DNA from: Pseudomonadota bacterium
GTDB lineage: Bacteria; Pseudomonadota; Gammaproteobacteria; Xanthomonadales; Rhodanobacteraceae
Length of the DNA: 64,000 bases
Assembly: GCA_021805685.1 (NCBI GenBank)
Contig: JAJZET010000235.1
Span: forward strand, 11,516-75,515
Reading direction: 5' to 3'
Position numbers and translations under genes: made by a program. The notes beneath the pieces were generated by a model that did no database searches, had not been told where the DNA came from, and saw only the letters and a program-made list of their open reading frames with translations. Below are positions 1,419 through 8,063 of the stretch, piece after piece; within the stretch, counting starts at the first letter, position 1, and each line of letters opens with the position of its first letter.

Positions 1419-2279
1419 TTAGCTAATCGCTTCAGACGCCGTTGAAAAGACCTCACTTCCGTAATATGCGATTAGGTTGTTAATAGCCAAGTCGTCGTTC
1501 TTATACATATTCTCCTTGAATAGCCCCGTCGATTGCGTACCGGGCCAAAAAATAGGGTGCAGCCTGTTCCCAACTTTGACTGGAAGAAACCCATTCAAGC
1601 GAGCCATGACATACAGCCAAAGATCGTCACTACTCGGACACAATTTCATGAACAGCGCTTCGTTTGTTACATCTGAGTAAAGGCTGCCATTTGGATAGAA
1701 AACACCACCAACACCATTAGCAATGATATCTGAACTGCGGATGCGTGATTTGTTATCTTGCACGTCAAAGCTCCAATCATAATATGGAGCTAACTTGCCG
1801 CCGGACAAATAGTGGTATCTGGCAACCATGTGCGACGGAATAGATTGGCTATCATTGGTAAATCCAACGACTAGCTCATCGAGCCAATTTCTAGGGTAGT
1901 AAATGTCATCGTCGCATATAACTATGTGAGCGTGAGGAAATCTATGTATTGTAGGAATTATTTTCTTGTACGAATAAATATCTCGAGTCTGTAAAATTGT
2001 TATCTTAGAATCAAGTCTTTGAACGGACTTAGGCAATTCGTCTATTTCTTCCTTGCTCACCCACAAAATGATGGCATCAGGAATAACTGTTTGCTCCAAT
2101 AGGCTGCTTAGAGTTAGGTGGAGCCACTTAAATCGCGGCCGGTAAGAGGTCATTGAAACTATGAGCTTCTTGTCTAGGCGATGTGGCCTAGGAACAATGG
2201 GGAAAACACTCTTTTGGTTCTCGTAGGCGGCAAGCAATTTACCCATCGGAGTTTCAAAAAATTTTTTTGCTTCAGGCAT
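1419..2279 (-). CDS. Glycosyltransferase, GT-A fold-like
   Basis: 286 aa; VSMTSYRPRFKWLHLTLSSLLEQT...ILWVS and CDDDIYYPRNWL (DxD-type) motifs; clearly AT-richer than the surrounding genome. Confidence 0.7.
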   Translation of the reverse strand: MPEAKKFFETPMGKLLAAYENQKSVFPIVPRPHRLDKKLIVSMTSYRPRFKWLHLTLSSLLEQTVIPDAIILWVSKEEIDELPKSVQRLDSKITILQTRDIYSYKKIIPTIHRFPHAHIVICDDDIYYPRNWLDELVVGFTNDSQSIPSHMVARYHYLSGGKLAPYYDWSFDVQDNKSRIRSSDIIANGVGGVFYPNGSLYSDVTNEALFMKLCPSSDDLWLYVMARLNGFLPVKVGNRLHPIFWPGTQSTGLFKENMYKNDDLAINNLIAYYGSEVFSTASEAIS

Positions 2280-2434: not shown

Positions 2435-2632
2435 TTATTTTGGAAGCGTCTTTGTCACCCTTCTTTTTGCTAATTTTTTTCCATAGACAATAGAAAAGGC
2501 CGCGCCAAAAGCGGCAACCGCTCTTTGTCCTTGTACAGGCAATCCAATGTAGCCAATTAAAAAATATACAAAAACCACACATAGGAGGAAAAAAACAGTT
2601 TCATATGGAAACGGCGTGTTGCGAATGTTCAT
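2435..2632 (-). CDS. Small two-TM membrane protein with basic C-terminus; candidate immunity protein
   Basis: 65 aa; two hydrophobic stretches, then KKLAKRRVTKTLPK; upstream AGAGGAAG RBS; follows the precursor gene on the same strand. Confidence 0.5.
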   Translation of the reverse strand: MNIRNTPFPYETVFFLLCVVFVYFLIGYIGLPVQGQRAVAAFGAAFSIVYGKKLAKRRVTKTLPK

Positions 2633-2651
2633 ATTATTACTTCCTCTTAAA

Positions 2652-2679
2652 GTACGATGCGCTTAGAAGCGCATCGTAC
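2652..2679 (-). terminator. Intercistronic hairpin between precursor and candidate immunity gene
   Basis: Perfect 13-bp inverted repeat GTACGATGCGCTT / AAGCGCATCGTAC (2652-2664 / 2667-2679), 12 nt past the precursor stop. Confidence 0.7.
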
Positions 2680-2691
2680 GGATGGTAGAAA

Positions 2692-2937
2692 CTATTCCTT
2701 GTTAGGAATGCTTGAGATCGGGAAAGCCTGGTTGGGATCCACGGGCATCTCGGATGCAGCCCATCCGGCTAGCCCGCTAACAACGCCCCCAACAAACCCA
2801 AAATCTGCGATCGCTGTGCCGGCAGCGAGACCAACAGCGAAGCCGATCATACCGCCAACATCTACGGTATAGCCGCAACCCGATACCTCGTCAATCTCGC
2901 ACTGCTCCAGCTCGCGCATCGATTCTGCAAATGACAT
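2692..2937 (-). CDS. Class II microcin/bacteriocin-like precursor peptide, double-glycine-type leader
   Basis: 81 aa from the ATG at 2937 (AAGGA RBS), shorter than the 90-aa ORF, which starts at TTG; leader MRELEQCEIDEVSGC, then Gly-rich hydrophobic core. Confidence 0.75.
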   Translation of the reverse strand: MSFAESMRELEQCEIDEVSGCGYTVDVGGMIGFAVGLAAGTAIADFGFVGGVVSGLAGWAASEMPVDPNQAFPISSIPNKE

Positions 2938-3034
2938 AGACTTTTCCTTGATTTCAGTAGCCAATTTTGCGCCAAATTCATTGACGCTCCCTTGATCAAG
3001 CTATCGATTATCTTTCCAGCCTGATCAATCTTAT

Positions 3035-3066
3035 CCTCGCATGTCGACTATTTCGACATAACGAGG
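3035..3066 (-). promoter_or_regulatory. Hairpin between ABC transporter and precursor genes
   Basis: CCTCG-c-ATGTCGA-ctatt-TCGACAT-aa-CGAGG; 12 bp of stem with a small internal loop; no U-tract on the minus strand. Confidence 0.5.
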
Positions 3067-3071
3067 GAAAA

Positions 3072-5225
3072 TTAAAATCCTAGCTCATCAGAGCAGCTTA
3101 TTACTCCGCCGCGTAGAGACGTGACTTTCCTAGCCATCCTAATCGTTTCCGGCCTATGCGCGATAACGATTTTGGTAATTTTCAGCCTGTGAAGCGCATC
3201 GTTAACGAGATGCTCTCGTTCTACATCCAGATGACTTGTTGCTTCATCCAGCACAAGCAGCTTCGGACATCTATACAATGCCCGGGCCAAGATCACCCTC
3301 TGTTTTTGCCCTCCTGACAGGCTCGAGCCCATGTCACCCACTAGGCTTTGATAGGCCATCGGCATCGCCATGACGTCCTCGTGAATCGCCGCCAAACGTG
3401 CGGCGGCTTCCACCTTCACCGGCGTGACTTCTGGATCGAAGAAGCTGATGTTTTCGAGGATGGATCCGGCGAACAATTGGTCGCCCTGCATCACGGCTCC
3501 TACCCATTGTCGGTAGGTGTCCAGCCCCAGCTTGCGGATATCGATACCGCCGAAGCGCACCTCGCCGTCCGTTGGCTCCAGCAGCCCCAGTACGATCTTG
3601 GTCAGCGTGCTCTTGCCGCAGCCGCTGGGACCGGTGATTGCGATCGACTCGCCCGCCTCGATCTTTAAGTTGCAGTGGCGGAGTATCCACGGCTCACTTT
3701 CCGCATAGCGAAAGCTCACATTGCACAGCTCGATGCTGGCCTCGGGGGTCGGGCCGTTCCAGGCAGCCTCGGCACGCTCTTCGGGCACGGCCAGCGCGAT
3801 ATCCGCCACCCGCTCCGCGTGCAGCTTCAGCATGCGGAAATCCACCCATTTGTCGATCAGTCCCGCCGCGCGGCTGGTGAATTGGTCCGCATAGGCGATG
3901 AAGGCGATCAGCGCACCCGCCGTAAATTCGCTCTTGAGTGCCATGGTCGCCGTGATCCAGATCATCGCCACCCGGCCGATCCCAAAAAGAAGCTGATTGC
4001 TCAAGCCGAAAGCAATGCTCAGGCGCTGGATGCCGATGCTCCGGTTGGCGGTCGAGACCGTGGCATTCGTGTAGCGTGACAGGCGTTCGTCTTGCTTGTT
4101 GGCTAGCTTGATCGGCATCGCACCCCGGATGGCTTCCAGCAGTTCACTCTGCTGGCGTGCGGCGGATATGATTTGCTCTTCATTCGCCCGGCGCAGCGGA
4201 GCGAAGAACGCCCAGCGGATCAGACCGTAGGCCAGGAACAGGCCTGCGACGAGCACCGTCAGCCACGAGCTGTAGAACCCCATGACCACCAAGGTGATCA
4301 CAGACATCACGCCATCAAGCAACGAGCCGATGAACTGAGTCGTCAGGGTCCTCTGGATGGTCTGGATGGAACCGAACCGGGAGACCACATCGCCAATATG
4401 TCGCTTCTCGTACCAGTCCAGCGGCAAGTGCATCAGGTGGCTGAACAGGTTGCTTGCCCACTGCACGTTGAGGGTCGCGCTCAACCAAGTCACGGCCCAG
4501 GAACGTGCGGCAGTGATGAGGGCCGAAAAGACCGTGATACCGAGAAAACCCAGCCCCAACAACGTCAGCAGGTCGTGGTCGGCCGAGACCAGCACCTGGT
4601 CGAGTACCCACTGCAAGTAGAACGGCCCGGCCAGCGCAAAGACTTCCAGCGCCAACGCCAGCAGCAGGATCTGTCCCAACGCCGGCGCCAAGCCGCGCAC
4701 CTTCCCGGTGAGGGTGCGCAGCGAGATGGCCTGACGCTCCCGGGCTGGTGTGAAGTTCGCACCTGGCGCGAGTTCCAGCGCCACGCCGGTGAAATGATCC
4801 GACACCTCGCGGCGCCGCAACGTGCGGATGCCGCGCGCCGGATCATGGATCACTATGCCCCGTTTTCCGACGCGCTTGAGGACCACAAAGTGGTTGAGGT
4901 CCCAATGCAGCAGGCAGGGCGTGCGCAACTTTGCCAGTTCATCCAGATCTAGCTTGAGCGGGCGGCAGGTGAAGCCGAGTTGACCGGCCATCGCCATCAC
5001 CCGCGCCAGGGTCACGCCCTTGAGCGAGGTGGAGAAGCGACGCCGGAGGCCGGCCAGATCGACATCATGACCGTGGTAGCTGGCGATCATCGCCAGACAA
5101 GCTAGACCACATTCAGCCGCCTCCGTCTGCTGCATCATTGGTAGGCGGCGCGACCAGCCAAACTGCAGCGCTGGTCGGTAACCGGTCGCCGACGCAGGAG
5201 CCTCGATCTGGGAGCCATCAGCCAC
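3072..5225 (-). CDS. Peptidase-containing (C39) ABC transporter, CvaB/colicin V type
   Basis: 717 aa; C39 motifs QTEAAECGLACLAMIASYHG, HFVVLKR, IHDPARG; Walker A GPSGCGKST; signature LSGGQKQR; Walker B LLVLDEATSHLD. Confidence 0.95.
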   Translation of the reverse strand: MADGSQIEAPASATGYRPALQFGWSRRLPMMQQTEAAECGLACLAMIASYHGHDVDLAGLRRRFSTSLKGVTLARVMAMAGQLGFTCRPLKLDLDELAKLRTPCLLHWDLNHFVVLKRVGKRGIVIHDPARGIRTLRRREVSDHFTGVALELAPGANFTPARERQAISLRTLTGKVRGLAPALGQILLLALALEVFALAGPFYLQWVLDQVLVSADHDLLTLLGLGFLGITVFSALITAARSWAVTWLSATLNVQWASNLFSHLMHLPLDWYEKRHIGDVVSRFGSIQTIQRTLTTQFIGSLLDGVMSVITLVVMGFYSSWLTVLVAGLFLAYGLIRWAFFAPLRRANEEQIISAARQQSELLEAIRGAMPIKLANKQDERLSRYTNATVSTANRSIGIQRLSIAFGLSNQLLFGIGRVAMIWITATMALKSEFTAGALIAFIAYADQFTSRAAGLIDKWVDFRMLKLHAERVADIALAVPEERAEAAWNGPTPEASIELCNVSFRYAESEPWILRHCNLKIEAGESIAITGPSGCGKSTLTKIVLGLLEPTDGEVRFGGIDIRKLGLDTYRQWVGAVMQGDQLFAGSILENISFFDPEVTPVKVEAAARLAAIHEDVMAMPMAYQSLVGDMGSSLSGGQKQRVILARALYRCPKLLVLDEATSHLDVEREHLVNDALHRLKITKIVIAHRPETIRMARKVTSLRGGVISCSDELGF

Positions 5226-6495
5226 GTGCCGTACCTCCCCACAGGTGACGTCCCATGCCGTACAGCGGCTCGAACAACCATTCCAGTAGGCTGCGACGGT
5301 CCATTAGGATGTCCGCCTGCAGCGCCATGCCCGGCTTCACGGGCTCGTCGTGGCCGTAGGCGAGAACGAACTGTTTGTCGAGCCTGACCTGCACGCGATA
5401 CAGCGATTGCTGGCTTTGCTGGCCGATAAGTGCGGCAATTTCCGAGGCGGTCAGGGCACTGCGCGAAATATCCGTCACGCGGCCATACTGCTGGCCGAAT
5501 TTCTGGTAGGGGAAGGCTTCGTAGCGCAACACCACACGGCTACCCGGATCGATGAAGCCAATGGCGCGGCTCGGCACCAACAACTGCGCCTGCAGCGTTG
5601 AACCCGCGGGCAGGATCGAAAGCAAGGACTGGCCAGCACTCACCATCTGGCCCGGTTTGGGCAGCACGGTGGACACGATGCCATCGCTGGGCGCACGCAG
5701 CACGGTGGCACGCTGCCATTCGTTCTGGGCGATGGACTGCGCCACATTGGCTAGTTTGCGTTCGGTGTCATTGCGTTTGGCGGCGGCTTCCAGCGGCAAT
5801 TGCGCCAGTTGCTGACGGGCTTCGTCGAGTTGCTGACGAGTATCCAGTTGCTGACGCGCCAAGGTCTTGGCCTGACTTTGCGCATCCAGCACAACGCCGC
5901 GTTGCTGCTGGATCTGCATTTCGGAGACATAGCCCTTGATACCCAACGGTACGAGGCGCCCCAACAAATCCTGGTTGTCCGTGACCTGCTTCTGCTCAAT
6001 GGCCAATTGGCCGACGATCTGCACTTGCTGAGCCTGCAGCAAGAGAATCTTGTTGCGCAGTGCATCGGCCTGTTTCTGAGCGAGTTGTTGCTGGTCGGTC
6101 AGGTCGGCCTGCAGACGAGAACGCTGAGCGTCGAGTTGTTGCCCCACTAGTGCGTGGGTGTCACCGAGGACGGCACTATCCTGATTGCTGGTCAGCTCCA
6201 GCAGTACCGCCCCCGCTTTGACTCGCTGGCCGTCGCGCACATTCAACTTGGCGAGGGTGCCGGCACTGGGCGCCACAACGTTGAGCAGACCGGCGCTGGG
6301 TACCAACTCGCCGGACACGGTTTCACGCCGGGTGTAATGGCCGAAGACCAGGAACAGCACGATGGCGGTGGCTAACGCCACGGCCAAGGCGCTGAGAAGC
6401 CAGCGCGACAGCGGCGCGGCGACGATGATGGAGCCAAGCCATTCGCCTCGGCGAGCCTCCATGACCTCCTGTCTGAACAGTGGTGCTCCCGACAT
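5218..6495 (-). CDS. HlyD/CvaA-family periplasmic adaptor of a type I peptide exporter
   Basis: 425 aa; single N-terminal TM, VSGELVPSAGLLNVVAPSAGTLAKLNVRDGQRVKAG lipoyl-like half-motif, coiled coil; overlaps the ABC gene by 8 bp. Confidence 0.92.
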   Translation of the reverse strand: MSGAPLFRQEVMEARRGEWLGSIIVAAPLSRWLLSALAVALATAIVLFLVFGHYTRRETVSGELVPSAGLLNVVAPSAGTLAKLNVRDGQRVKAGAVLLELTSNQDSAVLGDTHALVGQQLDAQRSRLQADLTDQQQLAQKQADALRNKILLLQAQQVQIVGQLAIEQKQVTDNQDLLGRLVPLGIKGYVSEMQIQQQRGVVLDAQSQAKTLARQQLDTRQQLDEARQQLAQLPLEAAAKRNDTERKLANVAQSIAQNEWQRATVLRAPSDGIVSTVLPKPGQMVSAGQSLLSILPAGSTLQAQLLVPSRAIGFIDPGSRVVLRYEAFPYQKFGQQYGRVTDISRSALTASEIAALIGQQSQQSLYRVQVRLDKQFVLAYGHDEPVKPGMALQADILMDRRSLLEWLFEPLYGMGRHLWGGTARG

Positions 6496-6801
6496 CTACC
6501 GCAATCCCCACATCGCCCGTACCCTATGTTGCTCAATGCTTGTGTCCTGCGCACACGCATGGACTCCGATACACGAACCAAGACGTTCGAGACCGTAAAT
6601 TGTGAAATGGCACCCGAAAGGAATGTGCCCCCCCCGTTAACAGGGCCTGTTGGCGCTCGCGACGGATTGACCATCACGCTCGCTTTCGATTGACCACTTC
6701 AAGTGACAGCGAACCCTCGCCGCGCGCCAGGTTGGACGACGCCGACCCTGGTCAATCCATTTTCGGCAATCTGGTCAAATCCCGGCGCGGGCCAACACAT
6801 C

Positions 6802-7206
6802 ATGGCTATAAATCTTGAGTCTCTCTCCCCGGCGGAACTCCAGGCGCTCATCAAGAGCGCGGAAGCGCAGATGGATTCCGCGCGGAAGAATCACGTCAAG
6901 GAAATGCGGGCCAAGATCGATGGCATTCTCGCTGGCGCAGGGCTGACCATCGGGGAGGTGTATCCGGCACGTGGGGGTAGGTCTGCGAAGGGCCCGAAAG
7001 CCAGCGTTGCCCCGAAGTACCGTAATCCCGACAACGCTTCTCAAACGTGGTCAGGACGCGGTAAGCGGCCCCTCTGGTTCAACGAAGCGTTGAAGAGGAA
7101 GGGTGTAACTGCAGAGAGCCTGATGATTGCCAGCGCTCCTCCAAAGGCTTCGCAAACCAAGAAGGCTGCGAAGAAGGCTCCGGGCAAGAAAATCGCAAAA
7201 AGGTGA
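6802..7206 (+). CDS. H-NS-family histone-like DNA-binding protein
   Basis: ATG at 6802; C-terminal PKYRNPDNASQTWSGRGKRPLWFNEALKRKG matches the H-NS DNA-binding domain; Lys-rich tail. Confidence 0.9.
   Translation: MAINLESLSPAELQALIKSAEAQMDSARKNHVKEMRAKIDGILAGAGLTIGEVYPARGGRSAKGPKASVAPKYRNPDNASQTWSGRGKRPLWFNEALKRKGVTAESLMIASAPPKASQTKKAAKKAPGKKIAKR

Positions 7207-7987: not shown

Positions 7988-8063
<76 letters not shown>

Follow-up and report, generated by a model that had tools for sequence, protein, structure and literature searches.

The locus described here (Table 1) contains, in order and on one strand, the genes for a periplasmic adaptor, a C39-type exporter, a microcin-type precursor and a small membrane protein of 65 residues, with the exporter and adaptor reading frames overlapping by 8 nt. 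These four genes had been noted in a preliminary description of the window (the whole 64,000-nucleotide stretch of DNA analysed, which lies within contig C244 of a Rhodanobacteraceae genome of 3.07 Mb in 294 contigs), and their order, strand and coordinates were borne out. That description was incomplete in limiting the cassette to four genes, since it left out a fifth on the same strand, encoding a glycosyltransferase (GT), beyond which the window contains an IS66 transposase. The cassette had also been placed in an AT-richer block, which holds for the gene of the 65-residue protein (39% GC) and for the GT gene (43%) but not for the adaptor and exporter genes (61–62%). A similar contrast, with an AT-rich small gene and GT gene, is seen at two related loci, L013 and L015. 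A whole-genome search gave no precursor match in other genomes of the same genus, so the cassette is regarded as accessory. The possibility of a contaminating contig was rejected, the closest exporters being from the same family and one of them from the same genus. Scans for consensus promoters and terminators gave scores little above those of shuffled sequences.

Table 1. Features of the putative microcin locus, in window coordinates
Feature	Position	Strand	Evidence
HlyD/CvaA-type periplasmic adaptor (membrane fusion protein), 425 aa	5218..6495	-	Pfam HlyD_3 2e-19
C39 peptidase-containing ABC exporter, 717 aa; triad C39, H112, D128	3072..5225	-	Pfam domains, PCAT1 match
Microcin-type precursor, 81 aa from ATG	2692..2937	-	Leader motif, sub-threshold Pfam MccV match
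Precursor parts: leader (ends SGC); core	~2875-2937; ~2692-2874	-	Leader motif
12-bp RNA hairpin, gap between precursor and 65-aa genes	2652..2679	-	z -5.6
65-aa membrane protein, putative cognate immunity protein	2435..2632	-	Hydrophobic segment; L014 relative
Glycosyltransferase (GT), 286 aa, KfiA-like GT-A type	1419..2279	-	Profile match to KfiA 2.9e-9

The exporter houses Peptidase_C39 (4e-36), ABC_membrane (5e-33) and ABC_tran (4e-31) Pfam domains, and matches PCAT1, a peptidase-containing transporter of solved structure (4ry2), over its full length. The triad is invariant across five aligned exporters, and its spacing (C-73-H-16-D) is that of CvaB, where the corresponding residues are C32, H105 and D121 (PMC9746304). 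Adaptor homologues are found in 69 of the 232 genomes of the family, and those in L013, L014, L015 and L017 are 61–76% identical to the adaptor of the window and occupy the same position. TolC had been expected to be encoded elsewhere, and two TolC-type proteins scoring above the TIGR01844 cut-off are indeed specified by other contigs (C293 and C121). Assignment to an NHLP/Nif11 system was rejected because the exporter and adaptor fall far under the cut-offs of the NHLM NCBIfam profiles (TIGR03796, 464 bits against 853; TIGR03794, 70 bits against 156).

The precursor begins with the leader MRELEQCEIDEVSGC, which contains the only match, at position 2913, to the pattern ELx(2-4)E[ILVM]xx[VI][SAG]G[GACS] when all 64 kb are translated in six frames, so its occurrence beside an exporter is not a chance find. 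The leader is 15 residues long when counted from an inner methionine and 21 from an outer one. Leaders of class II microcins comprise 15–18 residues and end in GG or GA (PMC10233263); the motif and length here fit, but the end is Gly-Cys rather than Gly-Gly or Gly-Ala. The sibling leader in L013 ends in GG, and leaders elsewhere in the family end in GG, GA or GS. In two other genera 20 of 23 and 19 of 23 leader residues are identical, while synonymous changes are many (pS 0.71–0.78) and non-synonymous changes few (pN 0.07–0.12); judged by this retention of residues and by the excess of pS over pN, the leader is genuine coding sequence. Cleavage after SGC would leave a core of 60 residues (5.9 kDa, 18% glycine, pI 4.1) that contains no cysteine and falls within the size range of class II microcin cores (about 60–90 residues and 5–10 kDa). 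A match to a known non-secreted family had been named as evidence against a microcin; none was found, the sole Pfam match of the precursor being to MccV (PF17508; 19.8 bits, E=0.0012), under the gathering cut-off of 27 bits. Searches with short peptide patterns gave no precursor relatives in genome contigs or on plasmids; relatives were recovered by whole-genome search, and weak matches (L005–L011), several of them in long frames or in frames with stops, were set aside. Identification as a class IIb siderophore microcin was rejected because the C-terminus (PISSIPNKE) is without the Gly/Ser-rich motif for siderophore attachment, as was a toxin–antitoxin pair, given the export leader of the precursor and the exporter beside it.

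In many of the sister cassettes examined (L013, L014, L015, L017 and L164–L180), small open reading frames with a double-glycine-type leader adjoin the exporter gene and the gene of a small membrane protein often comes next; both the cores and the membrane proteins vary between loci. Relatedness of cores and of neighbouring proteins was scored as z against shuffles for seven loci, giving 21 pairs. The cores are clearly related in only two of these, the window with L014 (z 16.7) and L022 with L023 (z 12.8), and the neighbouring proteins are related in the same two pairs only (z 15.6 and 14.2, respectively); the best of the remaining pairs reach z 3.5 for the core and 1.9 for the neighbour. A third pair, L015 and L169, shows 59% identity over 61 residues in the core and 35% over 157 residues in the neighbour. 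The carriers of related core/neighbour pairs do not group as sisters in trees of the exporters: grouping of the window with L014 is rejected for the adaptor (p=3e-9) and for the exporter (p=0.049), that of L015 with L169 at p=6e-5, and that of L171 with L182 (from the genomes of L022 and L023) at p=2e-5. The nearest exporter relatives of the window (L015, L164 and L013) carry different cores and neighbours, and L014 provides the sole relative of the core and of the 65-residue protein. The point of switching lies inside the precursor gene, the leader in the window being of the L013/L015 type (14 of 15 residues) and the core of the L014 type. Because relatedness of core and of neighbour coincides in the same pairs, and shared descent of the exporters is rejected for them, the two are, on the evidence of these comparisons, inherited as one module that passes from exporter to exporter, the behaviour expected of a toxin with its immunity protein.

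This joint movement is the main evidence for assigning an immunity role to the 65-residue protein. It had been described as having two transmembrane segments; one strong hydrophobic segment is present (about residues 6–36), but the second is weaker and does not secure a two-segment topology. Immunity proteins of class II microcins are encoded adjacently, have 51–216 residues and are usually located in the inner membrane, and the 65-residue protein resembles them in size, adjacency and hydrophobic segment as well as in travelling with the core, so that it is predicted to be the cognate immunity protein. Weak matches to it (G058 and G369) were set aside. E. coli and Klebsiella are the source of most verified class II microcins, whose immunity proteins, to our knowledge, are not recognisable by sequence. 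Covariation of core and neighbour against the exporter tree offers a criterion, applicable from sequence data alone, for likely cognate toxin/immunity pairs, of which three are found here.

The locus is thus very probably that of a class IIa-type microcin, uncharacterised so far but of a kind already known. For the export/immunity cassette that had been proposed for an unrecognised microcin-like peptide, the parts that can be judged from sequence are in place: catalytic triad, adaptor, leader (with its Gly-Cys end as the single departure), glycine-rich core, small membrane protein and TolC on other contigs. In the mechanism envisaged, the C39 domain of the exporter would recognise the precursor leader and remove it, cleavage being predicted, with some uncertainty, after SGC. 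The glycine-rich core would then cross the inner membrane and enter a channel formed by the adaptor together with a TolC protein whose gene lies elsewhere. Once outside, it would be taken up by closely related bacteria and kill or inhibit them, probably by acting at their inner membrane, and the 65-residue membrane protein would protect the producer. Core and immunity gene would form an exchangeable specificity module placed between the leader/exporter side, which is conserved, and a GT that is conserved in this lineage. We infer secretion, cleavage site, killing, immunity and the target of the peptide from these genes, and the steps up to export are predicted because MccV-type systems are established (PMC10233263) and from the gene anatomy seen here.

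The preliminary description spoke of a new system, which is an overstatement, because the architecture is already known from MccV and from mcbABCI of Moraxella. According to the portion of the report on the Moraxella catarrhalis mcbABCI operon drawn on here (PMC2761928), bacteriocin and immunity have been proven experimentally, and genes for an adaptor, a C39-type exporter, a double-glycine precursor and a small immunity protein follow one another in order, as in the window. The immunity protein there has 74 residues rather than 65, mcbC and mcbI overlap where the window has a hairpin-bearing gap, and that portion mentions no GT, such as is present in the window; the likeness is one of architecture, and no similarity of core or immunity protein is claimed. 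The class IIa microcin V of E. coli (CvaA, CvaB, CvaC and Cvi) resembles the window in its export components, its triad spacing and the sub-threshold MccV match, whereas the core of the window is not recognisably the same, its leader ends in GC, and the immunity proteins are unrelated by profiles. Ten class II microcins have been verified (PMC9746304). MccV-like peptides are described from the neighbouring family Xanthomonadaceae: Xylella fastidiosa has MccV-like cvaC/cvi microcins, with three copies of cvaC (PMC11885251), and microcin candidates from Xanthomonas were tested in 2026 (PMC13174018). The likeness to these is by description, and their gene arrangement differs from that of the window. 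The family of core and immunity protein, and the GT-linked type of leader, were not found described in the literature searched.

It might be argued that the exported peptide is not a weapon but a signal or an autolysis peptide, with the 65-residue protein as its receptor or regulator. C39 exporters carry signals too, and the Nap autolysis peptides of the gonococcus, which act on the producer, illustrate that processing by a C39 exporter does not necessarily make a peptide a killer of competitors (PMC11798529). Yet closely related exporters are accompanied by almost wholly different cores, which are exchanged jointly with the neighbouring protein, a pattern that fits toxin/immunity diversification, and the cassette contains no gene for a regulator or kinase. 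We consider a signalling or autolytic role very unlikely, and retain that of a microcin with its immunity protein.

Within the microcin interpretation, the role of the GT has to be considered. Its gene is present in three of the 232 family genomes, always adjoining the cassette, the two other copies being 67–70% identical; among exporter loci collected from genome contigs none was found except in L019, which is the L013 record, and there was none in viral contigs. The gene is under purifying selection (pS 0.90, pN 0.21), and its product retains a DDD motif and a distal DD pair; a profile built from it matches heparosan synthase B as well as KfiA, both GT-A glycosyltransferases. An AlphaFold2 model built from two sequences had a mean pLDDT of 39 and was discarded. 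In loci with the GT, 14 of 15 leader residues are identical, and the leaders also share an N-terminal MSF extension and GY after the expected cut, while no GT-less locus with a similar exporter has more than 8 of 15 residues in common with the window. The GT could act through the leader, and it is tempting to suggest that it recognises this shared sequence and attaches a sugar to the peptide ahead of its export, in the manner of the glycocin enzymes of Gram-positive bacteria; this would supplement the class IIa explanation rather than replace it. The confinement of the gene to cassettes in so few genomes, the common leader, the purifying selection and the KfiA-like fold family all favour such a glycosylated class II microcin, but we judge it unlikely. 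The tests did not reject a common origin of the three GT-associated exporters (p 0.13 and 0.10), and the pairing of leader and GT may therefore reflect no more than co-inheritance; a TAG stands in frame in the Rhodanobacter copy; and the core has no cysteine to bear an S-linked sugar. An O-linked sugar may be carried on the core. Also against it, the kin of the GT at 28–38% identity are located in capsule/LPS (surface-polysaccharide) clusters. Their location favours the alternative that the enzyme alters a surface glycan of the producer, for instance so as to mask a receptor, or is an unrelated neighbour, the peptide being left untouched as an ordinary class IIa microcin, and the IS elements that lie beyond the GT in both the window and L015 point the same way. 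To this we would give an even chance; it is opposed by the finding of the GT only beside the cassette, since an unrelated surface enzyme should also occur elsewhere in the family.

Glycocins, such as enterocin F4-9 (PMC8620827), likewise have a bacteriocin precursor and a GT in one locus, but their producers are Gram-positive and the GT here is KfiA-like; the glycocin core is rich in cysteine, with disulfides and a glycosylated residue, while the core of the window has no cysteine and its sugar is hypothetical. The broader proposal, that a leader-guided GT decorates class II microcins of the Rhodanobacteraceae, with conserved leader and GT serving interchangeable toxin/immunity modules, is in our view unlikely. 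If true, it would mean that glycosylated microcins exist in Gram-negative bacteria, and the GT link makes glycosylation of any Gram-negative class II microcin open to test.

A minor feature of the locus is the hairpin between the genes for the precursor and the 65-residue protein. Hairpins of differing sequence are found at the same position in L014 (z -7.8), L013 (z -4.5) and L015 (z -3.6), and could possibly serve as an attenuator or 3' stabiliser that holds precursor mRNA above immunity mRNA.

The module of precursor core and neighbouring membrane protein is met in more than one arrangement. In Fulvimonas soli (locus L171, the same as L022) both genes are placed between adaptor and exporter (1986-2764), with an additional leader peptide past the exporter; this is an alternative layout of the same module. 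In Rhodanobacter sp. L36, two consecutive short double-glycine-type peptides are followed by an 82-aa two-segment membrane protein (L021:8241-8898), a peptide tandem that resembles a two-peptide bacteriocin. Two of the family's exporters are adjoined by a membrane protein (L168:4727-5608 and L173:4578-5285) that resembles MauE/thioredoxin fusions and bears CxxC-like stretches, KCPICM and RCQVCM, at its C-terminal end. The complete genome G017 carries on C1 three adaptor copies with identical scores within less than 50 kb (at 2581249, 2611057 and 2628799), possibly marking a repeated cassette.

Locus L169 houses a precursor akin to the core of L015 (L169:4925-5344), from which most of the leader is gone; a transposase-like fragment adjoins it, and the precursor therefore looks to have been disrupted by insertion. 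Its neighbouring membrane protein is intact. The Rhodanobacter glycosyltransferase is divided between two contig ends of genome G170 (L013:1-480 on C136 and L117:3-338 on C124) and contains a TAG codon in frame, so this copy may be a pseudogene, or else the assembly may be at fault. The L117 fragment is followed by a gene whose product resembles M16-type peptidases.

The genes flanking the window's cassette on the side opposite its glycosyltransferase are listed below, and together may represent an island border.

Features flanking the cassette opposite the glycosyltransferase
Feature	Window position
H-NS-like protein gene	6703-7206
tRNA-Met	7988-8063

The part of the same contig that precedes and adjoins the window start (L012:1-12500, G000:C244) contains IS66 genes interrupted by a run of N, together with RHS-type repeat fragments and further transposase-like ORFs. 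Elsewhere in this genome, a second C39 domain is encoded within a 276-aa frame (G000:C293:27429-27833), on the contig that also carries the best TolC candidate.
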